NCBI RefSeq assembly: GCF_036898825.1
Contig: NZ_JARUND010000002.1
Span: forward strand, 186,001-250,000
Direction of reading: 5' to 3'
DNA: 64,000 bases
From: Streptomyces sp. B21-083
Lineage (GTDB): Bacteria; Actinomycetota; Actinomycetes; Streptomycetales; Streptomycetaceae
Shown here: positions 11,939 to 49,331 of the stretch, in pieces
Layout: every line of letters begins with the position of its first letter
Numbering within the stretch: position 1 is the stretch's first letter
The notes under the pieces: model-generated
Databases searched by the model: none
What the model was told of the DNA's origin: nothing
Seen by the model: the letters and a program-made list of their open reading frames with translations, nothing else
Position numbers and translations under genes: made by a program

Positions 11939-14900
11939 ATGCCACCACTCGGGCAAAGACGCTCGACCACGAGACGCCTTCTCCACGGCATCACCAAGGC
12001 GCTGCTCCCGCTGACCGTCATAGCCGGCGTCACCACCGCGACGGCAACGCCGGCCGCCGCCGCCACCCCCACCCTCGCCGTCGACCTCGGCACCACCACC
12101 GGGGCCTTCCGCGGCGGCGCCTCCGGGGCGCTGTACGGCCTGTACGGCCAGGACGTGCCGACGAACAACCTCATCGAGGGGATGGGGCTGAAGACCACCA
12201 ACACCAAGTACCAGGACGGCCAGCAGCACCCGGGCTCGGACGCCCTGGAGATCGCCAAGCCCTTCGTGGACAGCGGCGGCGGGGACGTCTTCATCTACAT
12301 GACGGACGTGTACCGCGCGGGCTACGAACGCACCAGCTACTCGGCCTACCAGGCGACCATGAAGACCCAGGTCGAGCAGGCGGAGGCCAGCCCCTACGCG
12401 AGCCACATCGTCTTCATCCCCTACAACGAGCCCGACCTGAACTGGTTCAGCGGCATGCGCACCAACTCGACCGCGCTGGCCAACTTCAACTCCGAATGGC
12501 GTCAGACCTACAACTTCGTCAAGGGCATCTGGCCTGAGGCACGGCTGGCGGGCCCCAACCTCTCCAGCTACTCCAACTCCGCTCTCAGCGGCTTCCTCAC
12601 CTACTGCAAGGCCAACAACTGCCTGCCCGACGTCGTGACCTGGCACACCCTGGGCAGCCCGGCGGACGTCCGCAACACCGTCAACGCCTACCGCGCGGCG
12701 GAGACGGCCGCGGGGATCACCTCCCCGATCACCGTCAACCTCAACGAGTACGCCCACCGCTACCATCTGACCGACCCCGGCCAGATGGTTCAGTGGATCG
12801 CGGCCCTGGAGGACGAGAAGGTCGACGGCAACCTGCCGTACTGGAACATCAACGGCAACCTCGGCGACTCGGCCGCGGCGCAGAACACGCCCAACGCCCA
12901 GTGGTGGCTTTACAACTGGTACAGCTCCATGAGTGGCAACACCGTCAAGGTCGACGGCGCCGCGTCCAACGCCGCGTACACCCTCCAGGGCCTGGCGAGC
13001 CTGGACACGGCCAAGAAGCAGGCCCGCGTCATCCTCGCCGGCGGCGGCACCAGCGGTGACTCGAACACGGTCATCAAGAACATCGACCCGGCGGTCTTCG
13101 GCAGCACCGTGCACGTCAGCGTGTTCCAGGACCGCTACAGCGGCTACCTCGGCGCGGCGGCCACCCCTACCCGGCTCTCCGACGCCGACATCGCCGTGGG
13201 CTCCGACGGCTCGATCACCCTGCCCATCACCCTCGACGCGATGTCGGCGTACGAGGTGATCGTCTCCCCCGGAGGCACCGGCAGCACCACCGCCTCCGAC
13301 AACACCTGGACAGGCACGTACGAGGCCGAGAACGCCACACTCAGCGGCACCGGCTACAACATCAACACCGAGGGCACCACCGGCAATGTCGGCAAGTTCG
13401 CCACCTCGGGCACCAAGGACGTCGGGGGCCTGCGCACCGGCTCGACCACGGTGATCTCCTTCCCCGTCAACGTTCCCACCACCGGCGACTACGACCTGTC
13501 GGTGTTCGGCAACAGCTACGCCAAGGACGCCGACGTCAAGGGCCCGACGGACGTGTACGCGCGAGTCGACGGCGGCGCCTCCACCAGGATCGACGTCCCC
13601 GTGGGCTTCCAGTGGGTGGTGTGGGGGCACAGCGACGCCACCGTGCACCTGACCGCCGGCAGTCACACCATCACCCTGGCCACCACCGGCGACAACGGCG
13701 CGAAGACCACCGGCGACGCCCTTATCGACAAGATCGACCTCCACTACAAGGACGCCGCCGTCCAGGGCACCACGCTCTACGAGGCCGAGCAGGCCAACCT
13801 CTCGGACAGCGGCACGGCCACCTACACCGCCCAGGGCCAGTCCGGCGCGGGCGCGGTGACCCTCACCTCCGGCAAGTCCGCGACCTTCTGGGTCTACTCG
13901 GCGCGGGACGGCTACGTCGACCTGACGGCCCGCTTCCGCAACACCGGCCAGGCCGACCTCACCGTCAACGGCAAGGCCGCCGACGACCAGACCCTGTCCG
14001 GCGCGACAACCGGCGCCTGGTCCACCTCCACCAACCGGGTGTACCTCAACGGCGGCATCAACAAGGTCGAGGTGACCGGCGCCGGCGGCACGCTCGCCCT
14101 GGACGACCTGGCCGTCACCCCGTTCAGCGCCTCCGACGCCGTCACCACCGGCAACGTCGTCACCTACCAGGCCGAGAACGGCACCCTCACCGGCACCGCG
14201 GCCGCCGACACCACTTTCAGCCAGGCCGACGGCGGTGTCGTCACCGGCATCGGCAACGGAACCGCCAACTCCCTCACCCTCGACGTCAACGCACCCTCGG
14301 CCGGCACCTACGCCATGACCATGCGCTACGCCAACGCCGAGGAACTGCCATCCAACCACTACAACCCCGACCTGTACGCCGAGCACGCCGACGTCAGCGT
14401 CAACGGTGGCACCTCCACCCGCGTCAATTTCGCCAGCACCCTGCACTGGAACCAGTTCGAGGACTACACCGTCCCCGTCACGCTCGCCAAGGGCGCCAAC
14501 GCCGTCAAGTTCACCGCCTCACAGCTGTTCGACTGGGACGGCACCACCATCGGCAAGGTCTACTCCGGCGGCGGCACCGACATCGGGCAGCCCATGCGCT
14601 CCAGCTCCGCGCCCCACCTCGACCAGGTCTCCTTCGCACCGTCCGCCCTGCACATCGGCGCCTCGACCGGCTTCTCCTCGACGGCCGTCGCCCAGCACAG
14701 CGCGCTCTGCCTCGAAGACCCGGCCAGGTCCACCACCGACGGCACCCAGTACCAGCAGAACACCTGCGGCAGCGGCCAGGAGCAGATCTTCGACTTCCAC
14801 CCCGTCTCCGGCACGACCGACACCTACACCGTCGTCAACCACTCCAGTGGCAAGTGCCTGGACATCTCCGCCCTCTCCACGGCCAACGGAGCCGCCGTCC

Positions 14901-40053: not shown

Positions 40054-41199
40054 TCAGCGGACCCCGCGTGCGTTGAGCCGGGCCGCCTGACGGGTCAGAT
40101 GGTCGCGTTCGGGGAGGTTGGGTGCTTTCAGGGCCGCCTCCGCGTAGAGACGTGCCGCTGTCGTCAGGTCACCGTCGCGCTCGTGGAGGTAGGCCTCCAC
40201 AGCGGTGTGGCGGGGCAGTGTGTACTCCAGCGTCGCGAGCGCCGCCAGGCCGGCGCGCGGTCCGTCGGCCTCGCCGACGGCCACCGCGCGGTTGAGCTGG
40301 ACGACGGGACTGTCGGTCAGTCGCACGAGTTCGTCGTACCACTCGACGATCTGTACCCAGTCGGTCTCCTCGGCGGTGGGTGCGTCGGCGTGAAGGGCGG
40401 CGACGGCGGCCTGTGCCTGGAACTCACCCAGCCGGTCGCGGGAGAGGGCCGCCTGGAGAATGCCGACGCCCTCAGCGATCGACGTGGTGTCCCATCGGCC
40501 GCGGTCCTGCTCGGCGAGGGGTACCAGGCTGCCGTCGGGTGCGGTGCGGGCCGTACGGCGGGCGTGGTGGAGCAGCATGAGGGCGAGCAGCCCCGCCACC
40601 TCGGGGTGATCGACCCGCGCCGCGACCTGCCGGGTGAGCCGGATGGCTTCGGCGGCGAGGTCGATGTCGCCGGAGTAGCCCTCGTTGAAGACCAGGTAGA
40701 GGACGCGCAGGACGGTGGCGACGTCGCCGGGCTGGTCGAATCGTATGCCGGAGACGGTGCGCTTGGCGCGGCTGATGCGCTGGGCCATGGTCGCCTCGGG
40801 CACCAGGTAGGCCTGGGCGATCTGGCGGGTGGTCAGCCCGCCGACGGCGCGCAGCGTGAGCGCGACCGCCGAGGAGGGGGTCAGTGACGGGTGGGCGCAC
40901 AGGAAGTAGAGCTGAAGGGTGTCGTCCGTCGCGGGCGTGGGCCCGGGCACCGGCTCCTCGTCGACACGGTCCTCACGCCGGCGCCGGGCCGTGTCCGCGC
41001 GGGTCGCGTCGAGGAACCGGCGCCAGGCGACGGTGACCAGCCAGCCCTTGGCGTCCCGTGGCGGGTCGTCCGGCCAGACGCGGACCGCCTCGACCAGTGC
41101 GTCCTGTACGGCGTCCTCGGCCGCCGCGAAGTCTGCTCCGCGGCGGACGAGGACGGCGAGCACGCTCGGGGTGAGGCTGCGCAAGAGTGCCTCGTTCAT
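40054..41199 (-). CDS. ECF42-type RNA polymerase sigma factor with C-terminal extension
   Basis: 381 residues. Sigma region 2 is about 15-80 (RGADFAAAEDAVQDALVEAV, DAKGWLVTVAWRRFLDATRAD), and region 4 about 110-160 (GLTTRQIAQAYLVPEATMAQ, RISRAKR). A roughly 210-residue helical, TPR-like extension (VLYLVFNEGYSG, WVQIVEWYDELVRLTDSPVV, LNRAVAVGEADGP) follows; this is the ECF42 layout, where the extension replaces a dedicated anti-sigma. The ATG at 41199 gives the usual MNEALLRS N-terminus, and a GTG at 41211 would overlap the stop of the DGPF gene. It is co-transcribed with that gene, the known partner of this group. Confidence 0.92.
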   Translation of the reverse strand: MNEALLRSLTPSVLAVLVRRGADFAAAEDAVQDALVEAVRVWPDDPPRDAKGWLVTVAWRRFLDATRADTARRRREDRVDEEPVPGPTPATDDTLQLYFLCAHPSLTPSSAVALTLRAVGGLTTRQIAQAYLVPEATMAQRISRAKRTVSGIRFDQPGDVATVLRVLYLVFNEGYSGDIDLAAEAIRLTRQVAARVDHPEVAGLLALMLLHHARRTARTAPDGSLVPLAEQDRGRWDTTSIAEGVGILQAALSRDRLGEFQAQAAVAALHADAPTAEETDWVQIVEWYDELVRLTDSPVVQLNRAVAVGEADGPRAGLAALATLEYTLPRHTAVEAYLHERDGDLTTAARLYAEAALKAPNLPERDHLTRQAARLNARGVR

Positions 41200-41207
41200 C
41201 GATGCTG

Positions 41208-41615
41208 TCACTCCGTGGTGGCGCAGTGCTCGGCCATGAACGGGCGCAGTTCGATCCACTCGTGGATCGGCTTACCGTCGGCTCCGGGGGCGGCCGACAG
41301 TTCTCCGGCCAGCTCGACGGCGCGTTCGTAGCTGTCGACGTCGATCGCCATCCAGCCGGCGATGAGGTCCTTGGTCTCGGCGAACGGGCCGTCGGTGACC
41401 GCGGGGCGCCCCTCACCGCCGTACTGGACGAACGTGCCCTCGGGGGCGAGCGCCTGGCTGTCCACGAACTCGCCGGTCTCCTCCAGCCGGGCCGCGAAGT
41501 CGCGCATGTACTGGATGTGCGCCGAGATCTCCTCCGGCGTCCACTTGTCCATCGAGACGCAGTTGACCGGAGCCGGGGCGCCTCGGTAGTGCTTGAGCAG
41601 CAGGTACTTGGCCAT
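41208..41615 (-). CDS. DGPF-domain (YciI-related) protein, partner of the ECF42 sigma factor
   Basis: 135 residues. Opens with MAKYLLLKHYRG and carries the family motif VTDGPFAETKDLIAGWMAID around residue 75, a ferredoxin-like YciI fold. In other Streptomyces, DGPF genes lie beside ECF42 sigma genes and are among their targets. AGGAGAACC is just before the ATG. It precedes the sigma gene by 8 bp and is likely the first gene of the pair. Enzymatic role unknown. Confidence 0.9.
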   Translation of the reverse strand: MAKYLLLKHYRGAPAPVNCVSMDKWTPEEISAHIQYMRDFAARLEETGEFVDSQALAPEGTFVQYGGEGRPAVTDGPFAETKDLIAGWMAIDVDSYERAVELAGELSAAPGADGKPIHEWIELRPFMAEHCATTE

Positions 41616-41768: not shown

Positions 41769-42623
41769 TCACAGGGTGGCCGCGCCGGTCACGACGGCCG
41801 CCAGTCCGGCGATCAGCTGGATGATGATCACGCCGACGGCCGACTCGTTGTCACGGCGCTCGGCCGCGGGATCGGAGGTGTGGAAGGCGGGGTCGGAGGG
41901 GGCGTAGTGGATGGTGAGTTCGCGGCCGAGTGAGCTGCCGGGGTCGGGGATGCCGTCGTAGGACAAGGCGGTGACGTGGACGCCCTCGCGGGTGGTGAAG
42001 GTGATGACGGGGGCGTGGTTGACGATCTCGTCGCCCTCCCCGTCCGTGCGGACGTCCTTGGCGACGGCCACGACACGCGCCGGGACCGCGACGGCCGACG
42101 ACAGCAGCGCGTCACGGGTGCGCACTCTGCGGAGATCGCCGCTGGTCACCGTCCAGGCGATGAGCAGGGCGCCGAAGCCGAGCAGCGCCCAGGGGTAGCC
42201 CCGGGCGACGGTCGCGTGAATGACCAGTCCGACGGCGAGCAGGGCCCCGGTGCAGTTCGGGACGACCCGGCCGCCCCTCTCGTCCCCGGTACCGAGCATG
42301 ACGCGGAACCGGTCCGGCCGCCCGCGCGGATAGCGCACCGTGAGTTCGAGGCCCACCCAGGCCGCGTCGACGCCGATGCCGTGCCTGCCCGTGTTCGGGA
42401 GGACGAACTCCCGCCCGCTGTCCGGGTCCTGGAACGCGACCGTCACCGGAATCCCCGGGAGCTTGGAGGCGCCGTGCTCCGGCTGTCCCACTTCCACGAT
42501 CCGGGCCGTCACCCAGACCGCTCGCTGGGCCGGTGTGAGCCCGGCCAGGGAGAGCCCGTAGCCGAGCGATGCCAGAGCCGCCGGCACCACCCACCACAGC
42601 TGCGACATGTCGTGCGCGCTCAC
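41769..42623 (-). CDS. DUF3592-like membrane protein
   Basis: 284 residues. Membrane segments lie near the N-terminus (LWWVVPAALASLGYGLSLAG), middle (LLAVGLVIHATVARGYPWAL, LGFGALLIAWTV) and C-terminus (IIIQLIAGLAAVVTGAA). Two soluble strands-rich parts, RPARIVEV-like (VTARIVEVGQPE) and VPARVVAVAKD, end in NHAPVITFTTREGVHVTAL and LTIHYAPSDP, the DUF3592 pattern duplicated. The GTG start directly follows the stop of the next upstream gene. Function unknown. Confidence 0.75.
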   Translation of the reverse strand: MSAHDMSQLWWVVPAALASLGYGLSLAGLTPAQRAVWVTARIVEVGQPEHGASKLPGIPVTVAFQDPDSGREFVLPNTGRHGIGVDAAWVGLELTVRYPRGRPDRFRVMLGTGDERGGRVVPNCTGALLAVGLVIHATVARGYPWALLGFGALLIAWTVTSGDLRRVRTRDALLSSAVAVPARVVAVAKDVRTDGEGDEIVNHAPVITFTTREGVHVTALSYDGIPDPGSSLGRELTIHYAPSDPAFHTSDPAAERRDNESAVGVIIIQLIAGLAAVVTGAATL

Positions 42624-43085
42624 TCAAAGCTCCAGGCGGAACATGCTGCGGGCCGGGTCGACCACGGCGCGGAGCAGGAGACCCACGCGGAGCGCCGGGT
42701 GCGACGAGTGCTTCCAGGTCGTTTCGAACGGCTGCACCCCCGGCCCGCTGATCCGCAGCCCGACGGCTACTCCGGTCGATTCGCCGTCGTCCCAGTCGGT
42801 GAGGCTGCTGACCTCCGCCGTCACCGCGATCCCGACGGCGTCGAGCCGCCGGTTGTCCTCCCTCTCGAACTGGGCGTTGAACCAGAGTGCGAGGCCCAGG
42901 GGGGTGCAGAACACGGTGCACAGGACGCTCCCGAGCAGGAAATCAAGATCGGCGAAGAAGGTGAAGGCCAACAGAACCGGCCCGCACAGGCCCAACATCG
43001 CGCCGAAGGAGTAAAGGATCAGTGCTTCGAACGGACCGACCCTGTCCACCTGCCTCGGCCCGGGGCCGTCGGCGCCGTCCGGCAT
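42624..43085 (-). CDS. Small membrane protein, DUF3592-related
   Basis: 153 residues. Two membrane helices (about 20-75: ALILYSFGAMLGLCGPVLLA and FLLGSVLCTVFCTPLGLALW) precede a soluble domain with AVTAEVSSLTDWDDGESTGV and AVDPARSMFRLEL. It abuts the DUF3592-like gene downstream (stop next to GTG), so the two are probably made together and may form a complex. Family not certain. Confidence 0.65.
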   Translation of the reverse strand: MPDGADGPGPRQVDRVGPFEALILYSFGAMLGLCGPVLLAFTFFADLDFLLGSVLCTVFCTPLGLALWFNAQFEREDNRRLDAVGIAVTAEVSSLTDWDDGESTGVAVGLRISGPGVQPFETTWKHSSHPALRVGLLLRAVVDPARSMFRLEL

Positions 43086-43124: not shown

Positions 43125-43547
43125 TCACGGGGTCACACCGTCCCCGGCGTAGAGGTAGGCACCGGGTCGGGCGGGGTCGGCGATCAGCAGTACCTGGTCG
43201 CCGGTGCGGGGTATGCGCAGCTTGGAGACGATGGTCTGGAGAGTGATCCGGTCGGCGGCGCCGGGCGGTTGGAGGACCAGGTCGACGACCGGATCGAAGT
43301 TGACCAGCTTGCCGGTGTCGCCGATCGACACGACGGTGGCGGGCACGGTCGGCGCCCCGGCGGCGAGCAACTGCTGTACGTCGAGGCCTGAGTTGTACGC
43401 GCCGATCGACTGCTGGACCTTGGCGAAGTCCGACTCGCCGAGGAACGCGCGCGTGGTCCGGCCGTAGAACCCCTTGCCGCTCGCCACCTTGCCCCCGATC
43501 TCGGCGGCCCGCTCCTCGCGGCTCTTGCGGCGCCCGAAGATTCCCAT
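43125..43547 (-). CDS. Uncharacterised small cytoplasmic protein
   Basis: 140 residues with no membrane segment. Begins with a basic MGIFGRRKSREERAAEIGGK; the C-terminal part VPATVVSIGDTGKLVNFDPV and VDLVLQPPGAADR resembles the short beta domain common in DUF3592-type proteins. GGAAG precedes the ATG 43547. It is divergent from the CHAT operon, separated by 127 bp, and leads the two membrane-protein genes after a 39-bp gap, so it may share regulation with either set. Confidence 0.65.
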   Translation of the reverse strand: MGIFGRRKSREERAAEIGGKVASGKGFYGRTTRAFLGESDFAKVQQSIGAYNSGLDVQQLLAAGAPTVPATVVSIGDTGKLVNFDPVVDLVLQPPGAADRITLQTIVSKLRIPRTGDQVLLIADPARPGAYLYAGDGVTP

Positions 43548-43674
43548 GGCGTTCTTCCCTTCCGACGGTGTCGGTTTCCCTGTCGCTGTGCTGACGAAGT
43601 GGACGCTAGGCGGCCCGGGACGCCTACCGATCCCAGGTTCGTACGCACGTTTGTCCTCGGCGTACGCTCCTGAC

Positions 43675-45051
43675 ATGCCGCCGCCCTCCAGCCCGCCGAC
43701 CGGTGAGCGCCGACCGCGTGCCCTGGTCATCGATCACGCCTGGCGCGGACTCGGCCCGGGACTCGAACCGCTGAGCGGTCCCGGCGGGGCGCCGCTGACC
43801 CGGACGGTCAAACTGATCGTGCTGCCGCTGATCGTCAGGCCGGCGCTGCGGCCGGCACTCGCGGCGGACTTCCTCGCCCCGGCCGAGACCTCGCTCCTCG
43901 ATGAGCTGATCCGGGAGTCCACCGGGCGGCTGGTGGCGACGGCGCAGTGGTTCACCCTGCTCAAGAAGGCTCGCCGAGCGCTGGGCGTCGTGGCGGGAAA
44001 CCCGCAGGACCTGTACTTCCAGCGCTGCTTCGAGCTGGCCGTCGAGCACGGCGCGCCCCGGCAGGGTGCCGACGTTCTGGCCAGGGCGTTGGTCGAGGAG
44101 GTGGCGCACTCCCCCGGTGGACGTACCGTGGACGCGCTGAAGGACCATCTGGGCGATGCCGCCCGGCGCTCGCGCCTCGACGCGGAGCTGGCCGCGGCCT
44201 GGGAGAGCCGTCCCCCGCCCGCCGACGCGGCTGCCGCGACCGCGGCTCTCCAACGGGCCGCCGAGGTCCTCGACGCCTGCGGTACGCCGGGCCCGGCGGG
44301 CACGTCACCGACGTACACCGGCATGGTCGAGGCAGGCCTCGGAGAGTTGTTCGGCCGGGTGCTGTGGGCGTACGCGAGCGGCGTCTGGGGCCGCGGAAAT
44401 CTGCCGACGCATCTGGGGCTGACGGGGCGGCAGGTGCCCCCGCGTCCGGAGGTGGGGCGGGGCGCCTCGACGGCCACGCTGCCCGCGCCGCTGGACCGCA
44501 CGCTCTTCGAGCGGCTGTTCACCGTGCTGCAGTCGTCGGCCCACCGGGAGGAGTTGGCGACGGTGGCGGAACTCGTCGCGCGGGAGACCGGCCGCAGTTG
44601 CGCTCCGCTCGGGCTGTACGACGAGAGTCTGCGCGTCGCCGTGGTCCTCGGCGGTGGGCTCGCGGCCGGCCTCGATCCGCTGGGCACCGGGGAAGGCGCA
44701 CCGGGTCGGACCGCCGCGCACCGGGCCGTCAACAGCCGCTGGCGACGGGAGGCGTCGGTCCTGCGCGCCCGCCGGATGACCGTCTCGGCCCGCCCGGACC
44801 CGGACGGCGGTGTCCTGGACGCCCTCGCCCAGGACCTCCGTACCCCGTGGGCCGCCTACATGCGGCGCCTGTGGGTGCGGTTGCACGGACGCGACGTACG
44901 CGACGCTCCCCTGGAAGACCTCGCGTCGGCCTGGGCCGTCCTCGACGGGGTCGCCCGCTCGGTGATGATGGACCACCGCGCGCGGGTCCGCGCGGCCCTG
45001 CGCGCCCTGTCGGTGCCGCCCGCCCCGGTGGCCGAACCGAGGAGCGCGTGA
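43675..45051 (+). CDS. Uncharacterised protein, first gene of the CHAT operon
   Basis: 458 residues. A Pro-rich start is followed by a largely helical protein (PAETSLLDELIRESTGRLVA, QWFTLLKKARRALGVVAGNP, DLYFQRCFELAVEHGAP) without membrane segments, signal or recognised catalytic motif. The ATG at 43675 has no clear ribosome site, so it may be translated from a leaderless or near-leaderless message. Its TGA overlaps the next ATG (TGATG). Linkage with the following two genes suggests a sensor, adaptor or effector of the CHAT protein. Confidence 0.7.
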   Translation: MPPPSSPPTGERRPRALVIDHAWRGLGPGLEPLSGPGGAPLTRTVKLIVLPLIVRPALRPALAADFLAPAETSLLDELIRESTGRLVATAQWFTLLKKARRALGVVAGNPQDLYFQRCFELAVEHGAPRQGADVLARALVEEVAHSPGGRTVDALKDHLGDAARRSRLDAELAAAWESRPPPADAAAATAALQRAAEVLDACGTPGPAGTSPTYTGMVEAGLGELFGRVLWAYASGVWGRGNLPTHLGLTGRQVPPRPEVGRGASTATLPAPLDRTLFERLFTVLQSSAHREELATVAELVARETGRSCAPLGLYDESLRVAVVLGGGLAAGLDPLGTGEGAPGRTAAHRAVNSRWRREASVLRARRMTVSARPDPDGGVLDALAQDLRTPWAAYMRRLWVRLHGRDVRDAPLEDLASAWAVLDGVARSVMMDHRARVRAALRALSVPPAPVAEPRSA

Positions 45052-46355
45052 TGGCGGCGCCGGAACACGTCGACGTCCGGGTGGTGCGCGGTGCGGACGG
45101 CACGATCCGGATCGCCGCCGGGCCCGGTCTCCGTGACGTCGAGGGGTACGGGGATGTCGTCGCCGTGGGCCCCGCGTTCACCCGGGCCGTCCTGGACGTC
45201 GCGGGCGCCGTGCTGACCTGGCCGGTGCTCGACGACCCGGCACTGCCGTCGGCGGAGATCCATGACGCGGGGCGGGCCCAGCAGTGGGTGTGGGCCCTGT
45301 ACGGCGAGGGCGTCGCCGCCGCCGTCCACGACTGTCCGGCGGGGGAGGCCGGCGTACGGGTGTCGGCGGAGGTGACGGCTCTCGCGGGCGCCGCCGCCCG
45401 GCTCGGCCTCGGCCACTGGGCGGCCCGGTGGTGGCCGGCGTCGTACTCGGACGGGATACCCGCCCTCGAACCGGACCTGCTGGGCCTGGAGTCGGCCGCG
45501 CTCACCCATCGCTGCCAGCAACTGTTCGACGACGGGGGTGACCAGCCCGACGACTGCGCGGCCGAACTGATCGAGGAGCACGGGGCAGCGCTCGACCCGT
45601 TGATCCAGTGGTGGCGGGGGGCACCACGGGCGACGGACACCGCTCGTCGGCTGGAAGGTGTGCTGCGGCTGCTCGACGACGCGGCGGACAGCGCCGGACT
45701 CGACGGGCCGGCCCTGCGCCACCTCCGCTCGGCTCTGCAGGGTCACGGTCCGGCCGGTACGACGGCCGACTCCGGTACGCCCTTCGGCCGCCACGCCGGT
45801 TACGCACTCGCAGCGGGGGAAACGGCTGTAGCGGGCGGCCGGGTGATCGCCCGGGGCTCAGGGGTCAACGACTGGTGCCGTTACCCGCCCGGTTTCGTCG
45901 ACGCCGCCGAGGACGCGGTGTCCTGGACGGCTCGCGCGCTCGGCGCTCGGCGGCTGGTCGAGGTCGAGGCCCTGGCCGCCCTCGCCGCGCCCGCCGCCGG
46001 TACACCTCTCGTCGCGGAAGTCAGGGTGAACGGCGGCGACCCGCACCGAGCGCCCCTCACCAGGCGCGACGACCTGTGGACCGGCCAGGCGGACCTGTCC
46101 TCGGACCTGCCGGCGGGGATGCGGGCGCCGCGTGTCGAGATCGGCGTCCTGCTGCCCGGCTTCGACCCGGGCCCCGGCACACCGGGCGAACCCGACGGCC
46201 GCGCCGAGCGTGACGCCGTCCGTGCCCTGGTCCGACGACGACTGACGGCCGCCGCCCGGCCACCGGCGGACGAAGCGACCCCGCACGACGGCTTCTCGAC
46301 GCCTTTCCTCGCCGAGACGGCCGCCGCCGAAGCCGCCACCGACGAGGACTACTGA
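45051..46355 (+). CDS. Uncharacterised protein, second gene of the CHAT operon
   Basis: 434 residues. The N-terminal half has alternating strands and helices (IRIAAGPGLRDVEGYGDVVA, FTRAVLDVAGAVLTWPVL), a Trp-rich middle (LGLGHWAARWWPASYSDG) and a C-terminal Ig-like strand series (PLVAEVRVNGGDPHRA, PRVEIGVLLPGFDPG) ending in an Ala/Glu-rich tail. GAGGAGCG lies 5-10 nt before the ATG, which overlaps the previous stop. No family is recognised. The overlap and 3-bp gap to the CHAT gene imply fixed stoichiometry with both neighbours. Confidence 0.7.
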   Translation: MAAPEHVDVRVVRGADGTIRIAAGPGLRDVEGYGDVVAVGPAFTRAVLDVAGAVLTWPVLDDPALPSAEIHDAGRAQQWVWALYGEGVAAAVHDCPAGEAGVRVSAEVTALAGAAARLGLGHWAARWWPASYSDGIPALEPDLLGLESAALTHRCQQLFDDGGDQPDDCAAELIEEHGAALDPLIQWWRGAPRATDTARRLEGVLRLLDDAADSAGLDGPALRHLRSALQGHGPAGTTADSGTPFGRHAGYALAAGETAVAGGRVIARGSGVNDWCRYPPGFVDAAEDAVSWTARALGARRLVEVEALAALAAPAAGTPLVAEVRVNGGDPHRAPLTRRDDLWTGQADLSSDLPAGMRAPRVEIGVLLPGFDPGPGTPGEPDGRAERDAVRALVRRRLTAAARPPADEATPHDGFSTPFLAETAAAEAATDEDY

Positions 46356-46358
46356 CGT

Positions 46359-49331
46359 ATGCGGGACGACAAGGTCGAACACAGCGAACAGGTTGAACAG
46401 GGCGAGCAGGGCGAGAGGGCGGGCGTGATGCCGCTGTACGGGGAGCCGTTCGACAGCGGCCTCGCCCTGGCCGAGGAACTTCAGCTGGCGGCCGACCTCA
46501 CGGCCGCCGGCGCTGTCTACGGGGAACTGCTCACCGTGGCGGAGTCCATCGAGGACTCCCCCGACGTACGGTTTCTGCGGGCCCACCTGCTGTCCGACCT
46601 CGCGACCGTCCGGCTCACCGCCACGGACTTGTCCGGAGCTGAGGACGCCGTCGAGCGCTCCCGCACGCTGCTGGACGGCATCGCGTCCGAGCCGATGGGG
46701 CCTCGCGGCCGCCAACTGTGGCTGGAAGTCCTGCTGAAGACGCTCCTCGCCAAGGCTGACCTGCGACGCAGGACGGGGCGGCTGGACGAGGCGCTGGCCT
46801 GTCTCGACGAAGCGGCCGCCAGGCTGCCCGAGTTCGACGATCCGGAGGGGCTGCGCGCCGCCGAACTCGGCTCGAACCGGGTGCTTCTGCTGATGGAGCG
46901 CGGCGAGTGGGGAGCGGCCGAGGAACACGCGACCTCGCTGCTGTCCACCCTGGAGGCGACCGAACTGGAGACCGTGCCACGGCTGCTGACCGCCCTCGGC
47001 ATGATCTGCTCCTCGACAGGGCGATACGACGAGGCCGAGGACCACCTCGCCCGTGCGGAGGAGGGTTACCGCGTCCTGGGAGACGTCGGTGAGCAGCACT
47101 CACTGCTCGCGCACCGCGCCCATGTCGCGATGGACCGGGGTGAACTCGACCTGGCGGAGCGGCTGTTCGCCGAGGCCTCGGCGTTCTTCGAGCGGCAACG
47201 GTGGTCCGGAGACCTGGCGGTCTGCGAACAGGCCCGTGCCTACCTCGCCGGCCGGCGCGGCGACAGTGCCGGCGCGGGCGAGCTGATGGCGGCGAGCCTG
47301 GCCCGGTTCGAAGAACTCGGCGCCTCGGTCGCCGCCGCCGACAGCATGCTGCTGGGCGCCCAACTCGCCTACGATCAGGGCGACATCAGCGAGCTGCAGC
47401 GACTGGCCCAGAGCGCCCGTGACATCTACCAGGCCCGGGAGGTGTACGAGCGGTGCGCCCAGGTCGACCTCATGCTCGCGCGCACCCTTGAGGACAACCT
47501 CAACCGCACGGACCACGGCGACCACGAGAGGCGGTCCGTCGACAACGCGCTCTCCCTCGCGCTGCCCGCGGCCCTGACCCTGCAGGCGGCGCGCTTCGAC
47601 TTCGCCACCGCCCACGCCCGCCATCAGTGGCTCCAACTGGCGGACGAAGCCATGGAGTTGGTGTTCAGGCTCGCCGTACGCCGCCAGGACCAGGGGCTGT
47701 TGTTCGAACTGGTGGAACACCGCAGTGCCGGCGCCTTGCTCGCCCTGGACCGTACGCCAGCGTCGTCGGCGCCCCACGCGTCGCCCTCGGGGTCCGTCGA
47801 AGACGCCGGGTCGGTCTTCCCCGGTGCGGCCATGAAGACCTACGCGCGCGCCGACGGCCCGATGACCCTCGGCGGGGTGGCGGCGGAGGCCGCCGCCACC
47901 GCCGGTCTGCGCGTCGCGCCGCCGCCGAAAGTGCGGATGGCGGCACAGGGGCCGGGACGTTTCGCGCTCCAGGAGTACATCGCGGGGGCCGAGTTCCGTT
48001 ATCACCGGCGGATCGTGAACGAGGAGGAGGTCCCCTTCTGGTTCACCGACGACCTGACCGGCCGACCGGTGGTCCAGGTCCGACTGGCCGACGCCGGCGA
48101 CCTGTTCATGACCTGGACATGGGCCGGCGGCGCCCGGGGTTTCGGCACCGGCCGGGGACCCGCCGGCGAAGTCGACAGTGCGGTGCGGGAGTTGGCCGCC
48201 GCGCTGCCGGGTACGGGAGAGGGCGCGGCGGGGGTGCGGCGCGCGTTCGGCTCCGGAGCTCTGGCGGAGCCGGGGGCCGAGCGCCGGCTCGCGCGGGTGC
48301 TGGCCGAGGCGCTGTGGCCGGCGGAACTGACGGCGCAGATACGCCAGGTGTCGCAGCGCGCGGGCCGTCCGCTGGTGCGGATCCAGCCCTCGCCCCGGGT
48401 CGCCCAGGTCCCCTGGGAACTGCTCGCCGTCGACGGGGCGTCCGACGAACGGCTCATCGAGCTGGCGGACGTCGTGACCACCACGCCGATGTCGTTGCGA
48501 CGCCAGGCCGACTCCGCGCGCCGGGCGCCGGACCGGGACCCGGATACGAACGCCGGTCCGGTCGTTCTGGTCCTCGACCCCCGGATCCCCGGGTTCCGGG
48601 CCGACTCCCCGCTCGGCTCCGTCCTGGGGCCGCCCGGATCGGACCCGGAGCTGCTGTCCTTCGTGCGGAGGCGTCTCGACGAGGGCGCCGTCGTGCCGTC
48701 CGTCGCCACCCCGGCGGAGGTGTTGCGCCGCACCGACCTGGACCGGGACTGGCTGAGCGGAGTGCTCCGCGAGGGCGCCCGCAGGCTCCTGTACGTCGGG
48801 CATGTGAGCGGCGCGCCAGTCGAGGGCGGGCAGAGCGAGGACGGCACACTCCATCTGTGCTGCGGCCCGGAAACCGCCGGACTGGCCGAACCGGTGCGCG
48901 GTCACCGCCCGTTGTCCGCGAAGGATCTTCTGCTGGGCACGCTTCCGTTGCGGGCCGACGGCGAGCCGGGCGCCCGGCTCTGGCCCGCGCCGCCGCGTGT
49001 CGCCCTCATCGGCTGCGAGAGCGGCGGCGACCTTCGCTTCGCCGAGTCGTTCGGCCTCGCGACAGCGATGATCCACAACGGTGCCGAACTCGTCACCGCC
49101 ACCAGGTGGGTGCTGCCGACCAGCTTCGTCTTCCATCAGCTGGCGGCCCTGCCCGAGTCCGTGCGCCCGCTGACGGAGGCGATCATCGCCGTCGACACCG
49201 CCCACGAACACCCCGACCCCGTGGGCCGGTTGGGCCGCTGGCAGCGCGAGCGGCTCGGCCTCTGGCGGACCGGCGGCCGGATCGAGCACTCGCCTCTGCT
49301 GTGGGCGGCCCTCACCTCCATCACCGTATGA
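46359..49331 (+). CDS. TPR-CHAT protein (caspase-like peptidase)
   Basis: 990 residues. Residues about 30-470 form TPR-like helical repeats (LLKTLLAKADLRRRTGRLDE, RYDEAEDHLARAEEGYRVLG, RGELDLAERLFAEASAFFER). A linker and a beta-rich region follow, then a C-terminal CHAT domain about 660-990. The caspase-type catalytic dyad is visible: His815 in LLYVGHVSG and Cys886 in ALIGCESGGDL. CHAT proteases typically wait for a trigger and then cut a partner protein or cellular targets. GAGGA lies 10 nt before ATG 46359, three bases after the preceding stop. I infer that the two upstream proteins are its partners. Confidence 0.9.
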   Translation: MRDDKVEHSEQVEQGEQGERAGVMPLYGEPFDSGLALAEELQLAADLTAAGAVYGELLTVAESIEDSPDVRFLRAHLLSDLATVRLTATDLSGAEDAVERSRTLLDGIASEPMGPRGRQLWLEVLLKTLLAKADLRRRTGRLDEALACLDEAAARLPEFDDPEGLRAAELGSNRVLLLMERGEWGAAEEHATSLLSTLEATELETVPRLLTALGMICSSTGRYDEAEDHLARAEEGYRVLGDVGEQHSLLAHRAHVAMDRGELDLAERLFAEASAFFERQRWSGDLAVCEQARAYLAGRRGDSAGAGELMAASLARFEELGASVAAADSMLLGAQLAYDQGDISELQRLAQSARDIYQAREVYERCAQVDLMLARTLEDNLNRTDHGDHERRSVDNALSLALPAALTLQAARFDFATAHARHQWLQLADEAMELVFRLAVRRQDQGLLFELVEHRSAGALLALDRTPASSAPHASPSGSVEDAGSVFPGAAMKTYARADGPMTLGGVAAEAAATAGLRVAPPPKVRMAAQGPGRFALQEYIAGAEFRYHRRIVNEEEVPFWFTDDLTGRPVVQVRLADAGDLFMTWTWAGGARGFGTGRGPAGEVDSAVRELAAALPGTGEGAAGVRRAFGSGALAEPGAERRLARVLAEALWPAELTAQIRQVSQRAGRPLVRIQPSPRVAQVPWELLAVDGASDERLIELADVVTTTPMSLRRQADSARRAPDRDPDTNAGPVVLVLDPRIPGFRADSPLGSVLGPPGSDPELLSFVRRRLDEGAVVPSVATPAEVLRRTDLDRDWLSGVLREGARRLLYVGHVSGAPVEGGQSEDGTLHLCCGPETAGLAEPVRGHRPLSAKDLLLGTLPLRADGEPGARLWPAPPRVALIGCESGGDLRFAESFGLATAMIHNGAELVTATRWVLPTSFVFHQLAALPESVRPLTEAIIAVDTAHEHPDPVGRLGRWQRERLGLWRTGGRIEHSPLLWAALTSITV

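Follow-up and report, generated by a model that had tools for sequence, protein, structure and literature searches.

A candidate co-regulated CHAT-protease module with a conserved 16-bp promoter box in Streptomyces and other actinobacteria

What is known of CHAT proteases concerns mainly their part in triggering immunity or cell death, and few of their partners are known. An autoinhibited TPR-CHAT protein is established in Craspase, whose CHAT protease, in the part of the source on which we draw, serves CRISPR-linked defence; there the TPR-CHAT protein (Csx29) accompanies gRAMP/Cas7-11, is bound by a controlling partner and, like the protein described below, has TPRs followed by a CHAT domain with a His/Cys pair (PMC9729208). 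The CATRA systems are called, in the corresponding part of PMC8195603, caspase-dependent ternary conflict systems. Here we analyse an operon from a 64,000-nucleotide stretch of Streptomyces sp. B21-083 DNA, the whole of which we call the window. The initial annotation had read its three genes as a coupled operon ending in a TPR-CHAT protease with an intact dyad, which stands, and had raised CATRA membership as a possibility, which is not supported. We are fairly confident that the operon represents a dedicated, co-regulated CHAT-protease module. Its genes are the following:

43675..45051, + strand: g1, 458 residues, no known family (open reading frame and relatives)
45051..46355, + strand: g2, 434 residues, no known family (open reading frame and relatives)
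46359..49331, + strand: g3, TPR-CHAT protein of 990 residues (open reading frame and relatives)

All three are real genes, because database searches returned at least 548 matches for g1, 328 for g2 and 178 for g3 (E <= 1e-3, query counted; the g3 query was residues 500-990, and the best 120 matches were listed for each gene). The close packing first reported was borne out: the TGA of g1 and the ATG of g2 overlap by one base (tgatg, 45049-45053) in the manner of translationally coupled genes, and g3 follows g2 after a gap of 3 bp. It is likewise correct that g1 and g2 belong to no recognised family, being without a match in Pfam, NCBIfam or PADLOC, and family scans of their relatives gave weak, scattered matches and nothing more.

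The TPR repeats of g3 are matched by Pfam TPR_12 (E 8e-9). Its CHAT assignment, which is predictive, rests on relatives: the Pfam check put six of six distant orthologues above the cut-off and left the window copy uncalled, and the domain (PF12770) was called in just 2 of the 30 close members of alignment A3. The elements concerned are these:

47994..49328, + strand: C-terminal part of g3 with the CHAT domain, residues 546-990 (comparison with orthologues)
48801..48803, + strand: codon of His815, predicted catalytic dyad, reading CAT
49014..49016, + strand: codon of Cys886, predicted catalytic dyad, reading TGC

Both codons of the dyad are present, so that it is intact in g3, as had been claimed. 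His815 is identical in all 30 close members of A3 and Cys886 in 29, the exception (P0242) having Arg, and both residues are kept in 28 of 28 sequences of a more diverse set made up of the window, nine Streptomyces-type loci and 18 others. The LGSVLG and CxSGGD motifs of the CHAT part are also kept in these 28, with one exception at one Gly of CxSGGD. The predicted protease dyad is thus, as judged by comparison, under strict constraint. When the g3 and CHAT profiles were compared with solved structures, no CHAT protein was found by sequence and TPR proteins alone were matched.

That the operon belongs to the CATRA ternary conflict systems is very improbable. All that the two share is a general plan, in which TPRs and partners accompany a caspase-superfamily protease; against this, PF20270 (CATRA-C) and PF20271 (CATASP) have no match in the window's genome (G000), whereas 5 of the 41 family genomes searched are positive for PF20270, and the profiles of g1, g2, TPR and CHAT gave no match among the 478 open reading frames of six CATRA/CATASP loci. 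For CATRA-N, no Pfam family was found in g1 or g2, and their relatives gave stray weak matches. The five CATRA proteins compared were unrelated in sequence, and four of them had C-terminal hydrophobic stretches by eye. Profile comparison gave probabilities of about 0.1% and 1%, and within the scope of these searches CATRA was rejected as a candidate family.

The distribution of the genes argues for their belonging together. One and the same set of 121 Streptomycetaceae genomes was searched with profiles of g1, g2 and g3, and g1, g2 and a full CHAT part occurred in the same six genomes, which supports the co-occurrence of the trio; the g3 profile matched strongly in those six, found a C-terminal CHAT fragment in one further genome (G009) and gave weak matches to the TPR part in eight others. 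Nor are g1 and g2 widespread without CHAT: they are paired with it in six of six Streptomycetaceae genomes with g1 and in 40 of the 44 named loci in which g1 was found (Streptomyces, Kitasatospora, Actinacidiphila, one Kutzneria and three labelled actinobacteria or actinomycetes), and these 40 have all of g1, g2, TPR and CHAT. Three of the incomplete loci (L027, L039 and L050) stop at contig ends, and the fourth, L065 of Streptomyces hainanensis, has g1-g2 and no TPR-CHAT within the next 8.7 kb. By eye, the neighbours at L065 resemble a sensor kinase and a response regulator. Of the complete named loci, 24 have TPR and CHAT in one protein, 15 have them as separate genes and one (L063) is broken.

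Across a class-wide sample, g1 was present in 22 of 296 genomes, its carriers being the window's genus, genera g20 and g47 (family f4) and genus g53 (family f19); it was also found in a Nocardia farcinica record. Within g20 it occurs in 53 of 78 genomes. Genus g20 is presumably Mycobacterium, judging by a 19-kDa lipoprotein family (two of two scanned) and by PE-like proteins, so called here for their likeness to mycobacterial PE proteins. In all 13 g20 loci, each with the four modules, TPR-CHAT precedes g1-g2, with a gap between them except in L104, and in complete loci outside g20 the order is g1-g2-TPR-CHAT. In L101 the stretch that separates CHAT from g1, at about 12200-12800, seems by eye to contain a VapBC-like toxin-antitoxin pair. 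That the parts have been split, fused and reordered while none was lost is strong evidence for a common task, and on these comparisons g1, g2, TPR and CHAT are inherited as one set, a genuine unit.

Upstream of g1 lies a conserved sequence, flanked by promoter-like elements on both sides:

43624..43639, + strand: conserved 16-bp box CTACCGATCCCAGGTT, upstream of g1 (locus comparison)
43663..43668, + strand: -10-like element TACGCT, 6 nt before the ATG of g1 (predicted leaderless start)
43603..43608, - strand: -10-like element TAGCGT belonging to the divergent promoter; the core GGTAG is 15 nt away (box comparison)

The pattern CTACCGAWCCCARSTT has a single exact match in the window's genome, which is the box at 43624-43639. 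Exact copies of its 12-base core are present in 56 of 63 loci versus none of 1260 shuffles, which, like all the box and promoter shuffles given here, preserve base composition only. All 43 named loci whose upstream sequence is available have the box at g1, as do 12 of 13 mycobacterial loci; in family f19, g1-g2-TPR-CHAT is present, a recognisable box is absent in four of four loci, and genome G281, although it carries the genes, contains none. TANNNT-N6-ATG follows the box in every one of the 57 loci whose box was usable and occurs in 0.5% of shuffled stretches, the search having covered 118 nt of real sequence (longest real distance 73) and 60 nt of shuffled sequence. This count omits L063, L065, L091, L092, L097, L104 and L109 for want of a usable box position, although L063 does carry a box. 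The mRNA of g1 is, given this pattern, very probably leaderless and its start at 43675 correct.

On the opposite strand the box faces a group of companion genes, in the order div, 153-residue protein and DUF3592-like protein in the window:

43125..43547, - strand: div, 140 residues, divergent neighbour of g1 (in 42 of 44 named loci)
42624..43085, - strand: companion of 153 residues, hydrophobic in places as judged by eye (17 of the 44 named loci have it upstream, on the opposite strand)
41769..42623, - strand: DUF3592-like protein of 284 residues, also hydrophobic in places as judged by eye (28 of the 44 named loci have it near the operon)

When only named loci with upstream sequence are counted, div is present in 42 of 43. 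The DUF3592-like assignment scores 20.8 bits in Pfam, below the cut-off of 25.3. This gene lies upstream in 16 of the 44 loci; in 12 more it is on the other strand, downstream of CHAT, and so relocated it has a box of its own in 10 of the 12, and likewise in G063. Different small proteins occupy the divergent position in mycobacterial loci, and in all 13 of these another box precedes the operon in which a lipoprotein-like gene comes first and TPR and CHAT follow; in L104, where g1 stands directly behind CHAT, this upstream box alone is left. Also in the window, at 40054-41259 on the - strand, a gene looks by eye like a member of the sigma-70 family, and it has the same place in just 3 of 44 loci.

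The box follows the presence of g1 closely. Exact matches to CTACCGAWCCCARSTT occur in 6 of 6 Streptomycetaceae genomes with g1 versus 0 of 115 without it (Fisher p 3e-10) and in 50 of 53 g20 genomes with g1 versus 0 of 25 without it (Fisher p 2e-17), both p values being uncorrected for shared ancestry, and a reverse-read control pattern had no match in the Streptomycetaceae or g20 genomes searched. The three g20 genomes with g1 and no exact box are G259, G401 and G419; among the other 50 an exact match stands at g1 in 43, only 3-5 kb off in two and only elsewhere in five. There are 76 exact matches in g20, 28 of which, in 22 genomes, are off the protease locus, and these off-locus boxes too are confined to genomes with g1 (22 of 53 versus 0 of 25, p 4e-5). 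Six of the 28 were viewed by eye: PE-like genes are faced by two, a lipoprotein-like gene and a SelO-like/secreted pair by one each, and two are unclear. The box at L132:4913-4924 (G123; the same site as in L142) lies by eye between the SelO-like gene and that of a small secreted protein, far from the locus, and those at L137:1516 and L145:1516 precede genes whose products we take to resemble mycobacterial PE proteins. In G150, of genus g47, a second box (L133:7173-7184) precedes a small membrane protein that is DUF4870-like by eye. By sequence comparison, the box marks a regulon: it sits at the promoters of g1-g2-TPR-CHAT as well as those of companions that are envelope proteins, and the 28 off-locus matches could define the rest.

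What reads the box is a separate question, on which the spacing of the promoters bears. On the side away from g1, NANNNT stands 14-15 nt past the core GGTAG in 77 of 97 boxes (4% when shuffled), a count that uses a loose -10 and includes some sites twice, as L140-L142 repeat sites of other loci; the stricter TANNNT at 11-17 nt is found in 48 of 83 boxes and in none of the mycobacterial boxes inspected. Spacing so nearly fixed resembles that of a -35 element or a class II activator and is counted in favour of another explanation for the same module, in which the box either binds a regulator whose gene lies elsewhere in the genome or serves a dedicated sigma factor as promoter element. The protease system would then be one target among others, as the 28 of 76 g20 matches off the locus, some of the six viewed facing PE-like, lipoprotein or SelO-like/secreted genes, would allow, and regulator and sites would have been lost along with the system. 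We consider this explanation quite unlikely: spacing on the g1 side varies, from -38 to -73, and off-locus matches are absent from 25 of 25 g20 genomes without g1. That confinement suggests instead that the box-reading protein is probably part of the module, with which it seems to travel.

Within the module, g1 is the best candidate reader of the box, by its basic and helical make-up. It is predicted to be largely helical, the model being poor (pLDDT 51.9), and its 60 near-invariant residues in the 28-member set include 17 R/K/H and 4 D/E. It has no match to any known DNA-binding family and, with the model so poor, its basic residues could instead bind RNA or an acidic protein. The composition of g2 is different: 31 near-invariant residues in the same set, with no R/K/H and eight Trp, and three invariant Arg in a smaller alignment set. 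Its N-terminal part is alpha/beta and helical, a sandwich-like domain lies at about residues 262-374, and the C-terminal tail is conserved (FLAE...EDY-COOH). The last two residues are [DE][YF] in 117 of 120 g2 sequences, the window included, and FLAE falls within the last 40 residues in 110 of the 120; ESDY is the C-terminal end in 10 of 13 g20 copies, and the ending is missing from three f19 copies (all three complete ones), from Kutzneria and from L108. Standing after a variable linker, the tail resembles a peptide used for docking, with the TPR part as a possible partner.

The set recurs with a box that is unseen in the sampled genomes without it, and so looks like one self-contained protease signalling unit; boxes shared by the protease and envelope-type genes point to a co-regulated module linked to envelope proteins. 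Our preferred reading, plausible and tentative as a whole, is a self-contained, co-regulated CHAT-protease signalling module with the following mechanism. g1, g2 and TPR-CHAT would form a complex, to which g2 may dock by its conserved acidic-aromatic tail and in which the protease would be kept inactive, as TPR-CHAT is in Craspase, and g1 would read the box. An envelope signal relayed by the DUF3592-like or lipoprotein companions would free the protease, which would cleave a partner (g1, g2 or a companion) and so alter expression from the box promoters, its own included. The protease would then act as a gate on a small envelope regulon and not merely as a killer. That g1 founds a new family of sequence-specific regulators, gated by a CHAT (separase/caspase-like) protease and with a 16-bp operator of its own, is a possible if doubtful extension. 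If true, it would mean a bacterial protease-controlled transcription switch wired to envelope lipoproteins and small membrane proteins and kept from Streptomyces to mycobacteria.

A role in defence is a serious rival, though we judge it somewhat unlikely. In such an anti-phage or programmed-death system, g1-g2 would sense infection and the released CHAT protease would cleave a killer, perhaps one among the small membrane companions. The CHAT protease of Craspase works in CRISPR-linked defence, as described in part of PMC9729208. The present system is patchy in Streptomycetaceae (6 of 121 genomes), its g1 is on six records of a plasmid collection, every one a replicon of 1.2-2.7 Mb, and it is decaying in G009, where L131:6395-7381 holds the CHAT end and broken DUF3592-like pieces, without g1, g2 or an exact box. 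All this would suit a defence system; however, none of the three operon proteins matches the anti-phage systems of PADLOC-DB 2.0.0, g1 has no match among 50,697 phage records, swapping or variable effector domains are not seen, the sequence is strongly conserved, and g1 is present in 53 of 78 g20 genomes, all of which is unlike a fast-turning-over conflict system.

For the signalling module that we prefer, partners, gene set and a dedicated DNA element are definable by comparison alone, which makes the question of how a CHAT protease is switched on, and on what substrate it acts, directly testable in Streptomyces. The box offers a handle, as a reporter and as bait for the missing sensor and regulator.

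Our literature searches turned up no description of the g1-g2-TPR-CHAT set or of its box. Bacterial gasdermin systems are activated by a caspase-like protease, and the present locus is like them in having a protease and a possible membrane executor; unlike them, it has no Pfam gasdermin match for g1, g2 or div, and its membrane companion is DUF3592-like. The EACC1/EACC2 and VMAP ternary systems are likewise multi-gene, protease-containing and found in multicellular bacteria, in the parts of PMC8195603 and PMC7159879 used here, which give them variable effector domains, whereas all parts are constant in g1-g2-TPR-CHAT; CHAT does not occur as a word in the text of PMC7159879 drawn on here. Unlike Craspase, the operon is without a gRAMP-like partner, its other genes, g1 and g2, matching no Pfam family, and the likeness is limited at most to the TPR-CHAT half. 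The locus is of a known kind in its CHAT protease with partners, and what is new in it is the regulon defined by the box.
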